Assembly (NCBI GenBank): GCA_001899635.1
Contig: MKVQ01000023.1
Location: 223,815 to 287,814, forward strand
DNA: 64,000 nucleotides
Direction of reading: 5' to 3'
DNA from: Myxococcales bacterium 68-20
GTDB taxonomy: Bacteria; Myxococcota_A; Polyangia; Polyangiales; Polyangiaceae
Shown here: positions 879-14,031 of the stretch, one piece after another
Layout of the letters: the number at the start of each line of letters is the position of its first letter
How positions within the stretch are numbered: position 1 is the stretch's first letter
Position numbers and translations under genes: made by a program
The notes under the pieces: model-generated
The model's input: only the letters and a program-made list of their open reading frames with translations
Database searches by the model: none
Told to the model about the DNA's origin: nothing

Positions 879-1652
879 ATGAACACCGTGAACGCCATGA
901 AGCTCGAAGGGCAGCGAGTCCTCGTGACCGGTGCGACGTCCGGCATCGGCCGTGCGTGCGCGATGCGCCTCCATCGCGAGGGCGCGACCGTGCTGCTCGC
1001 CGGCCGCCGCCAGGACCGCCTCGACGCGCTGGTGAAGGAGCTCGGCGCTCGCTGCCACACGGCCGCGCTCGACATTCGCGACCACGAGGCCGTCGAAGCG
1101 CTCGCCCGCGCCGAGACCACCGGCGAGATCGACGTGCTCGTCAATTCGGCCGGTCTCGCGCTCGGCCTCGATCCGGTCCATCAAGCTTCGCTCGACGACT
1201 GGGACACGATGATCGACACGAACTGCAAGGGCCTCGTCCACGCGACGCGCGCCTTCGTGCCGGGGATGATCGCGCGGGGACGCGGCCATGTCGTGCACAT
1301 CGGGTCGGTGGCCGGGACGTATCCCTACCCGGCCGGTCACGTCTACGGTGCAACCAAGGCGTTCGTTCACCAGTTCTCGCAGGCGATGAAGAGCGACCTC
1401 GCCGGCACCGGCGTGCGCGTCACCTGCGTGGAGCCAGGGATGGTCGAGACCGAGTTCTCGGTCGTCCGGTTCCAGGGCAACGAGGATCGCGCAAAGAAGG
1501 TCTACGGAGGGATGACGCCACTCTCGCCCGACGACATCGCCGACATCGTCCATTTCGCCGTCACGCGCCCGGCGCACGTGAACCTCAACGTCATCGAGGT
1601 CATGCCGTCCGCGCAGGGCTTTGGTCCCTTCTTGGTCAAGCGCAGCCCCTGA
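879..1652 (+). CDS. SDR-family NAD(P)-dependent oxidoreductase (YdfG-like)
   Basis: 257 residues, the usual size for a classical short-chain dehydrogenase. The Rossmann glycine motif TGATSGIG is at residues 17-24 and NSAG follows near residue 88. The catalytic triad is visible as Ser143, Tyr156 and Lys160 (YGATK). The C-terminal part (PSDIADIV-like helix, then HVNLNVIEVMP) is typical of the YdfG/serine 3-dehydrogenase branch, whose members reduce 3-hydroxy acid or malonic-semialdehyde-type substrates with NADP in the cytoplasm; the substrate here cannot be fixed. Starts at ATG 879, with a second Met at residue 7. It stands alone: 124 bp from the upstream gene and 175 bp before the downstream lipoprotein. 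No regulatory signal was recognised. Confidence 0.9.
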   Translation: MNTVNAMKLEGQRVLVTGATSGIGRACAMRLHREGATVLLAGRRQDRLDALVKELGARCHTAALDIRDHEAVEALARAETTGEIDVLVNSAGLALGLDPVHQASLDDWDTMIDTNCKGLVHATRAFVPGMIARGRGHVVHIGSVAGTYPYPAGHVYGATKAFVHQFSQAMKSDLAGTGVRVTCVEPGMVETEFSVVRFQGNEDRAKKVYGGMTPLSPDDIADIVHFAVTRPAHVNLNVIEVMPSAQGFGPFLVKRSP

Positions 1653-1827
1653 GTCGCCGGATCGATCACCGCTCCAGCGCTCGCTGGATGCGACGGAGCG
1701 CGAGACGGTAGCCGCGCCAAGCTCGCTGCCCTGCTCCTCAGATCGTCGCGTTCGGTCGTGCGTAGGAACTTCGCCCCGGGGGTCGTGTCCCTCGGAGGGC
1801 GTGGAACCGACGAACGAGGTCCGAGGC

Positions 1828-4137
1828 ATGGCCGCGACGCGAATCCTCACGATTGTCTCACCGCTCCTGCTCGGAGCACTCCTCGCCGCGAGCTGTGCGG
1901 CCCCTTCGTCCGGGCCCGCACCGCGAGGGGGTTCGGCACGCACCTCCGGCGGGCCGGCCGTACCCGGCGCGGAGCCGACGACGACACGACCGCCCCACAA
2001 GCCCCGGCCCGCATACCCAGAGCGGCGCCCGCAGCTCGGGATCACGACGCCGCTCAAGGGAGAGCCCAGCGTCGCCGCCCTCTCCGAGGCCCGGCTGGTG
2101 GCGTCGAGCTGCGAGAAGGCCTCGAACGAGGACGTCCAGGCGCGGCTCGCGGAGATGCGCGCGGCAGTCGACGAGTCGTTCAAGGAATGGCACGACGCAC
2201 AGCCCGGCTGCTGGGCTGAGATGCGGGAGGAGTATCGCTGGCGGAAGGGCCAGGGCGGCGATGTGTTCAGCGGCTCAGGGCTCGGCCTGTCGGGGTTCGG
2301 CGGCGGAGGCGGCGGTATCGGCCACGGCAGCGGCACCGTCGCACGCGCCCCCGCGCCGGTGCCGTCAGCCAAGCCCTCGGCGAACGCGGCCGCTCCGAGG
2401 CCGATGAAAAAGGATGAAGCCGCGAAGGCGCGCACCTCCTCCGGCACCAACAACCAGGTCACCGGCGTCGACGAGGCGGACATCGTCAAGACCGACGGCC
2501 GCTACGTCTACCTGGCGGCGAATGGCGCCCTCCGCATCGTCGAGGCGCTGAAGCCGCGCATCGTGTCGACGACGAAGCTCGCTGGGACGACACGAGAGCT
2601 GTTCGTCGAGGGCGATCGCGCCGTCGTCTACACGTCGAGCGGACCGGTCGGCCGTCGATGCACGTACGGCTACGACTGTGCGTTCGGGGGCGACGGCACG
2701 TCGACCAAGATTCACGTCCTCGACATCACGAACCGGGCCGAGCCGAAGGTCGTGCGGGAGATGGACCTGTCCGGCTCGCTCATCGCCGCACGCCGAATCG
2801 GGAACGCGGTCCACACCGTCGTCAGTGACGGTGATACGCAACAGGCGTACGAGACGTGGCCGGACGGGCTCGACATGTGCGGCACGGTCGAGTCGACCGT
2901 GCGCGCGAGATTCGCGAAGCTCAAGGCCGAAAACGAGAAGCAGATCCGAGCGAAGGCGATCTCGTTCCCGACGCTGACGGAGAAGGGAAAGGCGCAGCCG
3001 CTGTGCAGCGCACTGCTCCGCACGCCGATCCGCGACGGCAAGGCGTTCACCACGCTCGTCTCGTTCGATCTGAACGATGACACCGTCGCTCCGACGAGCG
3101 CGACGCTCCAGAGCCGCCCGGGCGCGGTCTTCGCGTCGGAGGGCGCGCTCTACGTCTCGGTCGTGCACCAGAAGCCGGGCGCCGGGCGCTGGTACTCGTA
3201 CTACGCGCCGAGCGTGAGCGAGGTCAGCGAGATCCACAAGTTCAAGATCGGCGCGAGCCCGCGCGACACACGCTACATCGGCAGCGGCACGGTCCCCGGG
3301 CACGTGCTGAACCAGTTCGCGATGGACGAGTGGTACGGCTACCTCCGCGTCGCGACGACCAAGGGGCGCGTCCCTGATCCGAAGGTCGAGAGCGCCGTGT
3401 CGATCCTCGCCGAGACACAGAGCGGCAACCTCACGCGCGTTGGAGCGGCGGAGAAGCTGGCGCCCGGCGAGGACATCCGCGCCGTCCGCTTCGACGACGA
3501 TCGCGGCTACGTCGTCACGTTCAAGAAGACCGACCCGCTCTTCGTGCTCGACCTCTTCGAGCCCGCGCGGCCGCAGGTCCTCGGCGAGCTCAAGATCCCG
3601 GGCTTCTCGACGTACATCCATCGCATCGACCCGGAGCACCTCCTGTCGATCGGTTTCGATGCGAACGACCACGGAGACTTCGCCTACTTCGACGGCGTCA
3701 TCCTCCAGCTCTTCGACGTGAAGAACCCCACCGATCCGAGGCTGGTGCACAAGGAGAAGATCGGGACGCGCGGCTCGAGCTCGGAGGCAGCGACCGATCA
3801 CCTGGCGTTCAACTACTTCGCCAGCGAGGGCCTGCTCGCCGTGCCAATGACGATCTGCGACGGAGGCGGTGACGGCAGGAACGGCGATCAGCTCGCCTTC
3901 AGCGGCCTGCTCGTCTACGACGTCGACATCGAGCGCGGCTTCACCCGCCTCGGCGGGGTCGACCACGGCACGAAGGGCGTGAGCTGCAGCACCTGGTGGT
4001 CGAACGCCAACTCCGCGGTGAAGCGGAGCGTGTTCCTCGATGATCTCGTGTACTCGATCGCCACCGATCGCGTGAAGGTGCAACGGATGAACCGACTGGG
4101 GGTCGACGTCGCGGACCTCTCCCTGATCGAGCGCTGA
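1828..4137 (+). CDS. Secreted lipoprotein with C-terminal beta-propeller domain
   Basis: 769 residues from ATG 1828; this start puts a clean signal peptide (LLLGALLAASC, lipobox Cys near residue 22) at the N-terminus, whereas the frame is open further upstream without one. After a Pro/Arg-rich and Gly-rich linker, the stretch TGVDEADIVKTDGRYVY near residues 210-230 is the hallmark of the secreted beta-propeller family (Pfam Beta_propel, distantly WD40-like). The rest of the protein, to the C-terminus, is propeller. Probably an outer-membrane-anchored or periplasmic protein; members of the family have no established biochemical role. Convergent with the small lipoprotein gene at 4166, with only 28 bp between stops. 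Confidence 0.85.
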   Translation: MAATRILTIVSPLLLGALLAASCAAPSSGPAPRGGSARTSGGPAVPGAEPTTTRPPHKPRPAYPERRPQLGITTPLKGEPSVAALSEARLVASSCEKASNEDVQARLAEMRAAVDESFKEWHDAQPGCWAEMREEYRWRKGQGGDVFSGSGLGLSGFGGGGGGIGHGSGTVARAPAPVPSAKPSANAAAPRPMKKDEAAKARTSSGTNNQVTGVDEADIVKTDGRYVYLAANGALRIVEALKPRIVSTTKLAGTTRELFVEGDRAVVYTSSGPVGRRCTYGYDCAFGGDGTSTKIHVLDITNRAEPKVVREMDLSGSLIAARRIGNAVHTVVSDGDTQQAYETWPDGLDMCGTVESTVRARFAKLKAENEKQIRAKAISFPTLTEKGKAQPLCSALLRTPIRDGKAFTTLVSFDLNDDTVAPTSATLQSRPGAVFASEGALYVSVVHQKPGAGRWYSYYAPSVSEVSEIHKFKIGASPRDTRYIGSGTVPGHVLNQFAMDEWYGYLRVATTKGRVPDPKVESAVSILAETQSGNLTRVGAAEKLAPGEDIRAVRFDDDRGYVVTFKKTDPLFVLDLFEPARPQVLGELKIPGFSTYIHRIDPEHLLSIGFDANDHGDFAYFDGVILQLFDVKNPTDPRLVHKEKIGTRGSSSEAATDHLAFNYFASEGLLAVPMTICDGGGDGRNGDQLAFSGLLVYDVDIERGFTRLGGVDHGTKGVSCSTWWSNANSAVKRSVFLDDLVYSIATDRVKVQRMNRLGVDVADLSLIER

Positions 4138-4165
4138 TGCGAGCGAGCGCGCGATCGTCCCGCCG

Positions 4166-4597
4166 TCAACGGCAGCGATCGTCGCGCCCCGGCTGCACCA
4201 GGCAGGCTCCGCGCGCGCAGCGTACGAGCACGGTGTGCTCACCGCTCGCGGCGCAGCGATAGAGCACGTCGGGATCGCCATCGAGCTTGTCGCCGCCGCA
4301 GTACGAGCCTCCGGCGACGCAGGGCATCGGCGCTTTGCATGCCGCGTCCGTCGTCCGGCTCGCCGGGTCGGCGCAGCCGCCGCCACACTTCACGACGCGG
4401 GTGAAGCCGCCATCCTCGCAGCGCTCGAGCGTGAGACCGTCGCTCCCGCATACGAGCCTGCCTTCGGAGCACCCCGCCTCGACCGGTGCGTCGGTACCGG
4501 CATCGGCCGACTCGACGAAGGTGAAGTCGTAGCAGCCGAGCGCGGCGACGGAGACGAGCATGACGCCCGCGGGAGGTGTCGAACGTCTCGCCGCCAT
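4166..4597 (-). CDS. Small Cys-rich lipoprotein
   Basis: 143 residues starting at ATG 4597 (MAARRSTPP). A hydrophobic segment ends in SVAALGC, a good lipobox, so the mature protein starts near residue 21. The mature part has about 12 Cys residues in short loops (CGGGCADP, YRCAASGEH, VRCARGAC), suggesting a disulfide-stabilised extracytoplasmic domain. The frame extends upstream of 4597, but a longer N-terminus would bury the signal peptide. It is divergent from the FHA/sigma-54 activator gene (start 4684), with 86 bp between starts that must hold both promoters. No family is recognised; the function is unknown. Confidence 0.65.
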   Translation of the reverse strand: MAARRSTPPAGVMLVSVAALGCYDFTFVESADAGTDAPVEAGCSEGRLVCGSDGLTLERCEDGGFTRVVKCGGGCADPASRTTDAACKAPMPCVAGGSYCGGDKLDGDPDVLYRCAASGEHTVLVRCARGACLVQPGRDDRCR

Positions 4598-9388: not shown

Positions 9389-10105
9389 GTGAAGAGGATT
9401 CGCACGATGCCCGCTCGCTCCCTCCGCTTCGGTCTCTCCTTCGTCCTTGCGTCGGCTCTCGTATCCGCGTTCGGAGTCGTTGCCTGCAACGAAGGCGATG
9501 ACACGCAGCCTCGTGCGCTGCGCGCCGGCGCGGACCATGACGACGGCGACGGCGATCTCGATCCGTCACAGCCGGCGCCGAACGACGATCCGAGCCTCGG
9601 CGGCGACACCGTCGACACGCAGGAGCCAACGACTCCCGAGCAGGATGACGAAGAGGAGCCCGCCGTCGATGCCGGCAGCGATGCCTCCATCGACGCGGGC
9701 ACGCCGCCCACGCCGGTGAGGGTGAAGTCGCCGGTGCCGGGCAAGGTCGTCACCTACCCGTACGGCGTGAAGAACAGCAGCTACGCTGCCGGCTATCACA
9801 CGGGTGAGGACTACGCCACGCCGACGGGCAGCATGGCCGTAGCCGTGCGCAGCGGGACGATCCGCTGGTCGAACGACAACGGCGGCGCGTACGGAAAGTG
9901 GATGGGGCTCGACGCCGACAATGGCCGCACGTACGTCTACTGCCACCTGTCGTCGCGCCTCTTCAAAGCGGGCGACAAGGTCGTCGCCGGGCAGCAGATC
10001 GCGAAGACGGGCGCGACCGGCAACGTGACCGGTCCGCACCTCCACTTCGAAGATCACCCCCTCGGTCCGTTCAAGTACGGGCAGGTTCGCAAGCCGCAGT
10101 GGTGA
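9389..10105 (+). CDS. M23-family peptidase lipoprotein (copy 2)
   Basis: 238 residues from GTG 9389; ATG 9407 is an equally usable start that still leaves a full signal peptide ending in GVVAC. The acidic Asp/Pro/Glu linker differs from copy 1, but the C-terminal M23 domain is nearly the same, including WSNDNGGAYGKW, DNGRTYVYCHLSSR and GPHLHFEDHP. The first metal-binding motif reads HTGEDYATPTGS. The sharp contrast between a diverged linker and a conserved catalytic domain fits a tandem gene duplication with purifying selection on the enzyme. The GCCGACGTCGGC palindrome about 20 bp past the stop could contribute to termination. Confidence 0.88.
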   Translation: MKRIRTMPARSLRFGLSFVLASALVSAFGVVACNEGDDTQPRALRAGADHDDGDGDLDPSQPAPNDDPSLGGDTVDTQEPTTPEQDDEEEPAVDAGSDASIDAGTPPTPVRVKSPVPGKVVTYPYGVKNSSYAAGYHTGEDYATPTGSMAVAVRSGTIRWSNDNGGAYGKWMGLDADNGRTYVYCHLSSRLFKAGDKVVAGQQIAKTGATGNVTGPHLHFEDHPLGPFKYGQVRKPQW

Positions 10106-11937: not shown

Positions 11938-12801
11938 ATGAGACGGGCCGTGCAAACCACGACAGTCGCCTTCGAGCACGCTGACCGGGGCCGCCCAGCG
12001 TTCGTCGAGCTCGTTCTTCCGACCGCGACGGCCGCGGGCGCGCTCGCTTTTCCGATCCTCGACGGAAGAGTCCCCTCTCTGGCGCTCGCCGCCGCTGCGT
12101 GGCTCTTCGTCTACGGCAGCTACGCGATCGATCGAATCTCCGAACGCGATCCCGCGAACCGCGCGAAAGGCACCGTGGTCGCGGCCCTCGCGCTGATCGC
12201 TTCGTTTGCGATCACCGGGGTGGCCGGCGGGCCTCGGTCCCTCACGCTGCTCCTCGTGTTTCCGCTCTCGGTCGCGCTGTACGGCACGCCGCTCGTGGCC
12301 TTGCTCGTGCCCGGTTCGCCGATCCGGCGCCTGAAGGACATTCCCTACTTCAAGAACTTCTACACAGCGTTCTTTTGGGGGCTGTTCGGCGTCTTCGCGG
12401 CGCTGTTCTCGGGGATCGACGAGATGGGAACGTGGCTCTTCGCGTTCCTCTTCTGCGCGATCCACGCCTTCGTCAACAACACGTATTGCGACGTGAAGGA
12501 CGTCGCGCGGGATCGTGCCGATGGCGTTCGCACGATCGTGGGCGCGCTCGGGATTCGTCGCACGCTCGTGCTCCTCCAGCTCGTCAACCTCGCAGGAGCG
12601 CTCGTCGTGGTCCCCTTCGTCGCGTTGGGGATCGTGCCCCGATGGGCGCTCGGTCTCTGTCTTTCCGGCATCCACGGTTTCGTAGTTCTTGCGGTCGCCG
12701 CACGTCCCGGAGCCGACCACGAGCGCCTCGCGCAGGTCGCGATGGACATCGGCTGGCTTGCCTGGACGCCCGTGCTCATCGCTTTCCGCTCCCTCGGCTG
12801 A
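11938..12801 (+). CDS. UbiA-superfamily prenyltransferase
   Basis: 287 residues with about eight hydrophobic helices. The two Asp-rich substrate motifs of UbiA enzymes are visible: YAIDRISERD near residues 61-70, and YCDVKDVARDRADG near residues 181-195, which bind the Mg2+-diphosphate of the prenyl donor. KDIPYFKNFYTA between them is a typical cytoplasmic loop. UbiA enzymes attach polyprenyl chains to aromatic or other acceptors in the membrane. The chosen start, ATG 11938 (MRRAVQTTT), places the first helix properly; the frame is open further upstream but Arg-rich. The gene is 56 bp upstream of the Pyr4/PaxB-like cyclase gene, and such a pair is the core of fungal meroterpenoid pathways. 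The acceptor and chain length are unknown. Confidence 0.85.
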   Translation: MRRAVQTTTVAFEHADRGRPAFVELVLPTATAAGALAFPILDGRVPSLALAAAAWLFVYGSYAIDRISERDPANRAKGTVVAALALIASFAITGVAGGPRSLTLLLVFPLSVALYGTPLVALLVPGSPIRRLKDIPYFKNFYTAFFWGLFGVFAALFSGIDEMGTWLFAFLFCAIHAFVNNTYCDVKDVARDRADGVRTIVGALGIRRTLVLLQLVNLAGALVVVPFVALGIVPRWALGLCLSGIHGFVVLAVAARPGADHERLAQVAMDIGWLAWTPVLIAFRSLG

Positions 12802-12843
12802 ACGAGCGAGCGCGCGCCCACTCACGAACACTCGCGTCGTACG

Positions 12844-12851
12844 AAAGGAAG
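12844..12851 (+). promoter_or_regulatory. Ribosome binding site for TTG-initiated cyclase
   Basis: AAAGGAAG sits 6 nt before TTG 12858 and decides the start of the cyclase gene: no ATG or GTG follows in frame before the first transmembrane helix would be lost. Confidence 0.6.
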
Positions 12852-12857
12852 ACTCCG

Positions 12858-13550
12858 TTGATCACTCTCACTGAGCTCGGTGCCGTCGCTTGCTGCCTCG
12901 GATGGTTGGCGTCGTACGTCCTCATGATCCGACAGACGCACGTCGATCAGGTCCCGGCGATGCCATTCATCCCGCTCTGCATCAACTTCGCATGGGAGCT
13001 CGTCTTCGGGTTCGTTCTGCCCGATCCGTCTCCGGTCGCGATGTGGATCGACCGCGCATGGTTCGCCGTCGACTGCGTCCTGCTGGTTCAGCTCCTACGC
13101 TACGGCCCGCGCGAGATGTCGTTGCCGGTTCCGCGCCGGTGGTACGCACCGGCCGCCTTCGCCGCGATCGGGCTCGCGATCGCGGGAATCTACACGTTCA
13201 CGCTCGACACCTCGGACTGGGGCGGCAAGTACACCGGGTGGGGAGATCAGGTAGTCAACTCCATCGCGTTCATGTGCCTGCTCGCCCGTCGTCGCAGCTC
13301 GCGCGGGCAGTCGCTCTACATCGTCCTCTTTCGCTCGCTCGGCACCCTGCCGCTGATCCCGTTCCAGCTGACCATCACGCCGAGCTCTCGCTTCGTACCG
13401 TTCGTTTGGGTCGCCTATCTCGCCCTCGACCTCGCGTACTGCGTCATGCTCTACCGGCAGTGCCGGGCCGAAGGACGAGACCCCTGGCGCCTGTTCGGTC
13501 GCGCCCCAGCGCGCGCCGAGCTATCGCTCGCCGCTCCAATCGCGGCGTAG
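12858..13550 (+). CDS. Pyr4/PaxB-like integral membrane terpene cyclase (putative)
   Basis: 230 residues, with seven predicted membrane helices; the fungal enzymes are about 240. The match to the fungal family (Pyr4 of pyripyropene, PaxB/AtmB of indole diterpenes) rests on blocks I recall from that family. They are LGWLASYVLMI (14-24), PLCINFAWELVF (39-50), a SSRGQSLY block followed by FRSLGTLP, and a final ALDLAYCVMLYRQ helix. Glu47 (of NFAWE) and Asp191 (of LDLAY) correspond to the acidic pair reported as essential in Pyr4 (E63/D218), which protonates the epoxide or olefin. The enzyme would fold a prenylated or epoxy-polyprenyl acceptor into a polycycle. The start is TTG 12858, after a good ribosome site. 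Paired with the UbiA gene upstream; a LuxR-type gene follows. Family confidence is good, product unknown. Confidence 0.75.
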   Translation: MITLTELGAVACCLGWLASYVLMIRQTHVDQVPAMPFIPLCINFAWELVFGFVLPDPSPVAMWIDRAWFAVDCVLLVQLLRYGPREMSLPVPRRWYAPAAFAAIGLAIAGIYTFTLDTSDWGGKYTGWGDQVVNSIAFMCLLARRRSSRGQSLYIVLFRSLGTLPLIPFQLTITPSSRFVPFVWVAYLALDLAYCVMLYRQCRAEGRDPWRLFGRAPARAELSLAAPIAA

Positions 13551-13617
13551 TCGCACCATCGCTGCCCTCTGCTCCTCCCCCGCTGCCGTAGCCCCCGCGA
13601 ACATGCGCTAAGAGACG

Positions 13618-14031
13618 GTGACGAGCTCCGCGCCGAGCTCGATGGCGCCGGCGCTGAAATGGAGCACCTCCACACTGAGCGCATGGCGGCACTGGTTCTT
13701 TGCGAGCCGGGATCGTTACGCGCTCGTCGTGGTCGAGTCCCCGGAGATTCAGCTCGACTCGATGCATGCTCGAACAGCCAGCACGTGGGGACTGACCGCG
13801 CGTCGAGAGAAGGTGTTTCGCCTCGTGCTCGAAGGATTGTCGAACAAGGAGATTGCGAACGCCCTCGGAATGCCCGCGCGGACGGTGGAGGTGCACACAC
13901 GCGCGCTGTTCGCGAAGGCCAACGTGGACAGCCGCGCGCGCCTCATCGCCAAGACGTGGAACCTGTACCGCCGGGGCGACGAGCAAGGCCTCGAGCTCGG
14001 GGCCGCATCTTCGAAGCAAGATCGCGGCTGA
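13618..14031 (+). CDS. LuxR/GerE-type HTH transcriptional regulator
   Basis: 137 residues from GTG 13618, the first start after an in-frame TAA at 13609. The C-terminal 60 residues are a GerE-type helix-turn-helix: LTARREKVFRLVLEGLSNKE, then a recognition helix TVEVHTRALFAKANV. The N-terminal 65 residues are not a receiver domain or an autoinducer-binding domain of normal size, so sensing, if any, is minimal or done by a partner. It lies 67 bp downstream of the terpene cyclase and on the same strand, so it may belong to that transcript and control the small pathway. It could instead be an independent single-domain regulator. Confidence 0.75.
   Translation: MTSSAPSSMAPALKWSTSTLSAWRHWFFASRDRYALVVVESPEIQLDSMHARTASTWGLTARREKVFRLVLEGLSNKEIANALGMPARTVEVHTRALFAKANVDSRARLIAKTWNLYRRGDEQGLELGAASSKQDRG

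Follow-up and report, generated by a model that had tools for sequence, protein, structure and literature searches.

A UbiA-type prenyltransferase and Pyr4-like terpene cyclase gene pair in a myxobacterium, a minimal variant of a known bacterial coupling

Described Pyr4-like systems and the myxobacterial gene pair

Fungal meroterpenoid clusters carry a flavin adenine dinucleotide (FAD)-dependent epoxidase and an acceptor synthase. Their Pyr4/PaxB-type cyclases belong to the same Pfam family, and have the same acid pair, as a small membrane protein encoded in the DNA analysed here, a stretch of 64,000 nucleotides of Myxococcales bacterium 68-20 (hereafter the window), in which the cyclase gene directly follows the gene of a UbiA-type prenyltransferase. 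The window differs from the fungal clusters in that scanning the neighbours of the pair revealed no recognisable epoxidase or acceptor synthase. A coupling of UbiA-type prenyltransferase and Pyr4-like cyclase has a published bacterial precedent: the zig cluster of Micromonospora zingiberis encodes the UbiA-like ZigC and the cyclase ZigF, which is proposed to act after ZigC and to protonate a terminal alkene (zigralone study, JACS 2026; PMC13307353). The zig substrate carries an epoxide made by the cytochrome P450 ZigK (PMC13307353), and the cluster is large (polyprenyl synthase, five P450s, methyltransferases, thiamine pyrophosphate enzyme), in contrast to only two enzyme genes and one helix-turn-helix (HTH) gene in the window; the comparison of the window pair with ZigC/ZigF was made by description. 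The drimentine dmt locus resembles the window in its few genes, in the conserved Glu, Asp and Tyr of the cyclase DmtA1 and in alkene protonation, but DmtC1 is phytoene-synthase-like rather than UbiA-type and the acceptor enzyme, a cyclodipeptide synthase, is encoded within the locus (PMC6173783).

The window pair is a variant of a known bacterial coupling and not its first example, a status that we rejected because of the zig precedent. The original prediction, made from the window sequence alone, was right about the identity of the enzymes and overstated the novelty of a UbiA-coupled bacterial Pyr4-like cyclase; its observation was confirmed and its interpretation was supported in part. A profile hidden Markov model survey gave 1107 bacterial Pyr4-like candidates, 264 of which were kept by nearby terpenoid genes (PMC13307353), and these 1107 may include the window pair or relatives of it. 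The terms myxo, archae and histidine are absent from the main text of that paper. Among the papers listed in a literature search, mostly without subscription papers, none dealt with Pyr4-like cyclases of myxobacteria or archaea, or with UbiA proteins and a histidine kinase. Enzymes of these types are already known from fungi and a few bacteria, and what distinguishes the window pair is its minimal make-up and its lack of a recognised cluster, together with a kinase link in some relatives; in this stripped-down form, recurring in distant microbes, the pair seems undescribed.

Identity, catalytic positions and recurrence of the pair

A profile search with the cyclase protein gave the Pyr4-TMTC family PF25129 (E 1.8e-30, 106.8 bits, cut-off 27), with no other Pfam family and no NCBIfam family at E up to 1, and a sequence search at E up to 10 found no relative of solved structure. 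By sequence, the protein is a member of the Pyr4-like cyclase family with acids at the catalytic positions. The NFAWE, SSRGQS and LDLAY motifs and the positions of Glu47 and Asp191, as originally predicted, were all found in the translation, and the two acids stood in the aligned catalytic positions in 44/44 and 41/44 homologues respectively (Burkholderiales and archaeal rows included). In the Asp191 column, L064 and L071 have Asn and the Burkholderiales locus L050 has Gly. Tyr20, Trp46, Glu47 and Asp191 were invariant in the 19/19 homologues from the window genome and sampled relatives. The column of Glu86, considered as a conceivable counterpart of DmtA1 Asp94, had an acid in 22/44 rows (17 Glu, 5 Asp). 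The Pfam alignment of the window cyclase spans residues 7-171 and excludes Asp191, so the assignment of this residue depends on the homologue alignment. Tyr and Glu are 27 residues apart in the window cyclase and in DmtA1 alike. In DmtA1, the E60A/Q and Y33A/F changes abolished activity, D214A kept a very low amount, and D94 and E133 are described as unique to DmtA1-3 (PMC6173783).

The UbiA-type protein matched PF01040 with a modest margin (E 4.5e-10, 39.7 bits, cut-off 34.2), and its best NCBIfam match, PRK13591 'prenyltransferase', reached 49.8 bits, far below the cut-off of 238. Its second Asp motif (Asp185 xx Asp188 xxx Asp192) was invariant in 7/7 aligned rows. The first Asp-rich motif of UbiA proteins has the consensus NDxxDxxxD; in the window protein it is a variant (Asp65 xxx Glu69, third Asp absent), while the other six aligned rows have [DN][HK]xxD, both as read by eye in a gapped part of the alignment. 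The reading frame is open from 11677 onward, hence the start given in Table 1 is a putative one. The cyclase gene is separated by 56 bp from the UbiA gene and by 67 bp from a LuxR-type gene with a GerE match, all three on the + strand, which is the gene order that had been predicted. One feature of fungal-type meroterpenoid clusters, a prenyltransferase gene adjoining the cyclase gene, was thus found in the window.

The coupling recurs at other loci, including a second one in the same genome. Profile searches of the window genome (11.9 Mb in 52 contigs) gave two places for PF25129 and five for PF01040, and both cyclase genes have a UbiA gene directly upstream on the same strand. The cyclases of the two pairs are 39-40% identical and the UbiA proteins 32%. 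The second pair (contig C3, L021:8357-19042) is flanked by hemA and hemC, with hemC immediately after it. Its nine scanned neighbours include hemC, a uridine kinase, an HD/receiver protein and hemA, two of the nine being without a Pfam match, and no epoxidase, acceptor synthase or biosynthetic cluster was recognised among them.

PF25129 was found in 14/193 'relatives', 21/377 phylum genomes and 0/14 control genomes, so that its occurrence exceeds chance; the two larger samples overlap and together gave 41 cyclase places (20 plus 21 new). A UbiA gene was linked to the cyclase at 9/41 places, a count that may be a lower bound because only 1.5 kb per side was read at 7 of the 21 new places, as against larger stretches at the others. 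It lies directly upstream on the same strand in the window, L021, L029, L030 and L105 (where the order is polyprenyl synthase-UbiA-cyclase), adjoins on the opposite strand in L106 and L107, and is separated only by a kinase gene in L103 and L104. By a rough estimate that assumes 7 UbiA genes in 9 Mb and a reach of 3 kb on each side, the chance probability of 9/41 is approximately 1e-12, with places that are not independent.

Beyond the phylum, an 84,980-species collection scanned with two narrow peptide patterns gave three loci (L050, L051 and L052). The Burkholderiales metagenome-assembled genome (MAG) with L050 has UbiA, cyclase and then a type 2 isopentenyl diphosphate isomerase gene (TIGR02151, 298.2 bits, cut-off 281.3), and among 199 genomes around it the cyclase was present in one, the MAG itself. 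A related pair, L051, follows a FilR1-type regulator gene in an 'uncultured archaeon' MAG. Seven of the 199 genomes around this archaeon matched PF25129, five of them over the cut-off including that of L051. The archaeal cyclases L077-L080 (L113-L116) and L051 are closely related, and L077-L080 have no UbiA gene in the stretch read; L081 and L082 are weak, broken archaeal cyclase matches, with a weak UbiA reading beside L082.

In the cyclase tree (44 rows), the window grouped with L021 (99/88) and these two with L050 (94/61), and the window, L021, L050, L029, L053, L054, L060 and L061 formed a set of eight (92/97). A linked UbiA gene was present in 8/8 rows of this set versus 3/36 of the others (L030, L051 and L055), the rows being related. 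This tree omits L074 and L075 (duplicates of L051 and L050), L072 (under the cut-off), the fragments L067, L052/L076 and L020/L039, and the weak broken L081 and L082. In the UbiA tree (60 rows), the window grouped with L050 (99/89) and these two with L021 (100/97), the kinase-linked UbiA proteins belonged to a distinct set of 16 rows, and a further set contained L029, L030 and L105; 17 of the 20 background loci were recovered (L091, L094 and L097 were lost) and the partial L153 was omitted. Long branches were flagged in both trees. The window, L021 and L050 form one clade in both, with a different inner order, and the inheritance of UbiA and cyclase genes at these three loci is near-congruent. 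As the kinase-linked UbiA proteins and those of L029, L030 and L105 stand elsewhere, the pairing of cyclases with other UbiA lineages probably arose apart.

Table 1. Coordinates of the genes, codons and sites discussed (positions of the window unless a locus is given)
Feature	Position	Strand	Basis
UbiA-superfamily prenyltransferase-like membrane protein, 287 aa	11938..12801	+	PF01040; putative start codon
AGGAAG, likely ribosome-binding site of the cyclase gene, 6 bases 5' of TTG	12846..12851	+	inspection of the sequence
Pyr4-like transmembrane terpene cyclase, 230 aa, TTG start	12858..13550	+	PF25129
Tyr20 codon, counterpart of DmtA1 Tyr33	12915..12917	+	conserved in 44/44 aligned rows
Glu47 codon, predicted proton donor, counterpart of DmtA1 Glu60	12996..12998	+	44/44 rows
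Asp191 codon, second conserved acid, counterpart of DmtA1 Asp214	13428..13430	+	41/44 rows
LuxR-type (GerE) HTH protein, 137 aa	13618..14031	+	PF00196, E 2.1e-13
Membrane histidine kinase beside UbiA-type genes	L103:6709-8013; L104:3948-5366; L106:6119-7501; L107:4384-7566 (two copies)		HisKA + HATPase

The LuxR-type protein is a possible regulator of the pair; no receiver domain appears among the nine Pfam families listed for it. Thirteen neighbours of the window pair were scanned against Pfam and included NUDIX, OmpA, M23 peptidase, kinase, sigma-54 activator and short-chain dehydrogenase/reductase proteins, among others; in one scanned set, 4/10 had no Pfam match at E 0.001. Elsewhere in the phylum, a gene for an MpaB-like/latex-clearing-type oxygenase adjoins the cyclase in L026, L028, L031, L033, L108, L111 and L112 (7/7 of those tested with Pfam), and a squalene/phytoene-synthase-like protein is encoded near the L024 cyclase. 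The protein encoded at L030:7025-8806, adjoining the UbiA-cyclase pair, is a Rieske-P450 fusion. The L039:3619-14558 region is type II polyketide synthase (PKS)-like, with two ketosynthase genes and FAD monooxygenase genes, and contains only a cyclase fragment (9749-9919).

Proposed reaction and its alternatives

The gene pair probably attaches a terpene chain to an acceptor and then folds this chain into rings. The reading that we prefer, with a probability of roughly 0.62, is that the UbiA-type protein and the cyclase form one membrane enzymatic module, in which an acceptor of unlinked origin is prenylated and the chain is cyclised by protonation. The UbiA-type protein would transfer a C15 or C20 polyprenyl chain from the general pool to an acceptor made by non-neighbouring genes; Glu47 of the cyclase, aided by Tyr20 and Asp191, would protonate the distal end of the chain, and a cation cascade would then close the rings. 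We infer that both proteins are active enzymes and that they act in this order on an alkene. As no epoxidase was recognised next to the two pairs of the window genome, we slightly favour direct protonation of the terminal alkene over the opening of an epoxide. There are precedents: a C=C bond is the site protonated by DmtA1 (PMC6173783), and GroF cyclises linear hexaprenylguanidine (PMC12105684).

Several observations weigh against a two-enzyme module of this kind. The first Asp motif of the window UbiA-type protein is non-canonical, and the binding of pyrophosphate might therefore be altered. In the stretches read, 32/41 phylum cyclase places have no linked UbiA gene. In the Burkholderiales pair, the UbiA gene is frameshifted and Gly takes the place of Asp191 in the cyclase. 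L052 (Chlorogloea, 1446-4342), without a UbiA gene, has a broken cyclase reading with a nearby PF01494 FAD protein. A UbiA gene adjoins 1/5 over-cut-off archaeal cyclases (L051), three of the other four being on contigs shorter than 5 kb; a 64% identical UbiA is encoded on a different contig in the archaeal genome G507, the UbiA gene of G500 is broken, and close UbiA proteins occur in cyclase-free archaeal genomes. Moreover, a P450 gene lies beside the UbiA and cyclase genes in L029 and beside the UbiA-cyclase locus L030, and aromatic-hydroxylase-type FAD monooxygenases (PF01494) are encoded in the UbiA-free loci L023 and L039. These enzymes and the FAD protein of L052 make it likely that some relatives carry out an oxidation step.

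The same oxidative genes bear on a conventional meroterpenoid pathway split over the chromosome, in which prenylation of an aromatic acceptor by the UbiA-type protein would be followed by epoxidation of the chain, through an FAD or P450 enzyme encoded elsewhere, and then by opening of the epoxide by the cyclase. It overlaps with the preferred module, the sole difference being the added oxidation step. Epoxidation by an FAD enzyme is the typical priming step, and the zig cluster provides an example with a P450 (PMC13307353); besides L029 and L030, a P450 gene adjoins the cyclase in L119, and the FAD monooxygenases of L039 and L052 accompany a cyclase fragment and a broken cyclase respectively. 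However, no FAD-dependent or other epoxidase and no acceptor synthase (such as a PKS) was recognised among the 13 scanned neighbours of the window pair, four of them without a Pfam match, or among the nine of the second pair, an unlinked epoxidase not being sought. None was recognised by the archaeal pair (three neighbours scanned) or the Burkholderiales pair (one scanned, the others inspected by eye). We regard the split pathway as rather unlikely.

Alternatively, the cyclase could act on a general isoprenoid (the side chain of a quinone, a polyprenol or another prenyl lipid) that the UbiA-type protein makes or draws on, with a membrane lipid rather than a secondary metabolite as the product. 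The position of the second pair among housekeeping genes, directly before hemC, is consistent with such a role, as are the cyclases of five archaeal genomes, for which the short stretches inspected showed no recognisable biosynthetic cluster. The scattered, low occupancy (21/377 phylum genomes) is unlike that of a core lipid gene, and we consider a lipid product improbable.

An AlphaFold2 model of the cyclase, predicted from a 3-row alignment (window, L050 and L051), has seven long transmembrane helices, the sixth broken (mean predicted local distance difference test score 76, predicted template modelling score 0.72); the other four models were poorer (55-65). The seven-helix architecture was found in this predicted model only. 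Foldseek gave no hit that reached E 0.001, and the 16 rows at its top were KDEL receptor, SWEET and cystinosin chains (E 0.025-0.62). When VIA-align rescored the Foldseek candidates, the best was the KDEL receptor 6i6b (Z 13.2, 3.7 Å over 177 residues), and the 16 top rows all belonged to the PQ-loop/SWEET/KDEL receptor superfamily, followed by a drop from 7.9 to 6.4, although helical bundles can reach such Z values by chance. The model suggests that Pyr4-like cyclases share the PQ-loop/SWEET fold, which no paper listed in a search aimed at it reported; the likeness comes from a modest model and carries no functional information. PQ-loop membership, which the original prediction had named as a possible refutation, was rejected at the sequence level and retained as a fold likeness. 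That the protein is a transporter-like PQ-loop protein, with UbiA as a chance neighbour and no biosynthetic pair at all, is very improbable despite these structural matches, given its sole match to Pyr4-TMTC, the Glu and Tyr conserved in 44/44 rows and the recurrent UbiA linkage.

Histidine kinases beside UbiA-type genes and meaning of the pair

A membrane histidine kinase is encoded at four of the nine UbiA-linked phylum cyclase loci (L103, L104, L106 and L107). Its N-terminal part of approximately 200 residues has invariant Gly-Glu and Met-Ala-Pro positions and matched no Pfam family over the cut-off in 4/4 proteins tested. The kinase was present in 10/16 UbiA loci fetched (the ten best outside the window genome and six at 1.8e-37 to 1.7e-32), these four among the ten, and it lies beside the UbiA gene except in L107, where the cyclase gene lies between. 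Six of these kinase-bearing loci have no cyclase gene (L151, L152, L153, L154, L155 and L157) and are from genomes outside the 21 with a cyclase; L156, L158, L159, L160, L161 and L162 have UbiA without the kinase (L161 ends just past UbiA, and the UbiA genes of L160, L161 and L162 were detected by a six-frame check). The window genome had no match to the sensor part of the kinase. Within the 377 genomes, no close matches were found beyond the 11 query places, and seven remote matches lack UbiA within 1.5 kb; the 11 query rows are the same 11 places that were returned as close matches, and no statistic of UbiA association was drawn from them.

ComA of the Bacillus ComQXPA system is a LuxR-type protein, and a LuxR-type protein adjoins the window pair. 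ComQXPA also has a prenyl-transferring enzyme encoded beside a histidine kinase, as in L103, L104, L106 and L107, but ComX is a peptide (PMC4008528); no prepeptide was sought in window-type loci, and homology is not claimed. By analogy with ComQXPA and its prenylated peptide, UbiA, a Pyr4-like cyclase and a membrane histidine kinase might constitute a prokaryotic terpenoid signalling system, a speculative idea to which we give little weight. In this equally speculative scheme, the signal would be a cyclised prenyl compound that the two enzymes produce in the membrane, to be read by the kinase or, in the window, by the LuxR-type protein. The window pair would then represent a derived form that lacks the kinase. 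The kinase could just as well have a different function.

The window holds the smallest prenyltransferase-cyclase unit that this analysis found outside a recognised biosynthetic cluster, and such units occur twice in one genome as well as in a Burkholderiales and an archaeal MAG. Because the unit is minimal and recurrent outside a recognised cluster, the nature of the acceptor and the requirement for an epoxide can be probed with two genes only. Should the association with the kinase prove functional, it would reveal terpenoid signalling in bacteria.

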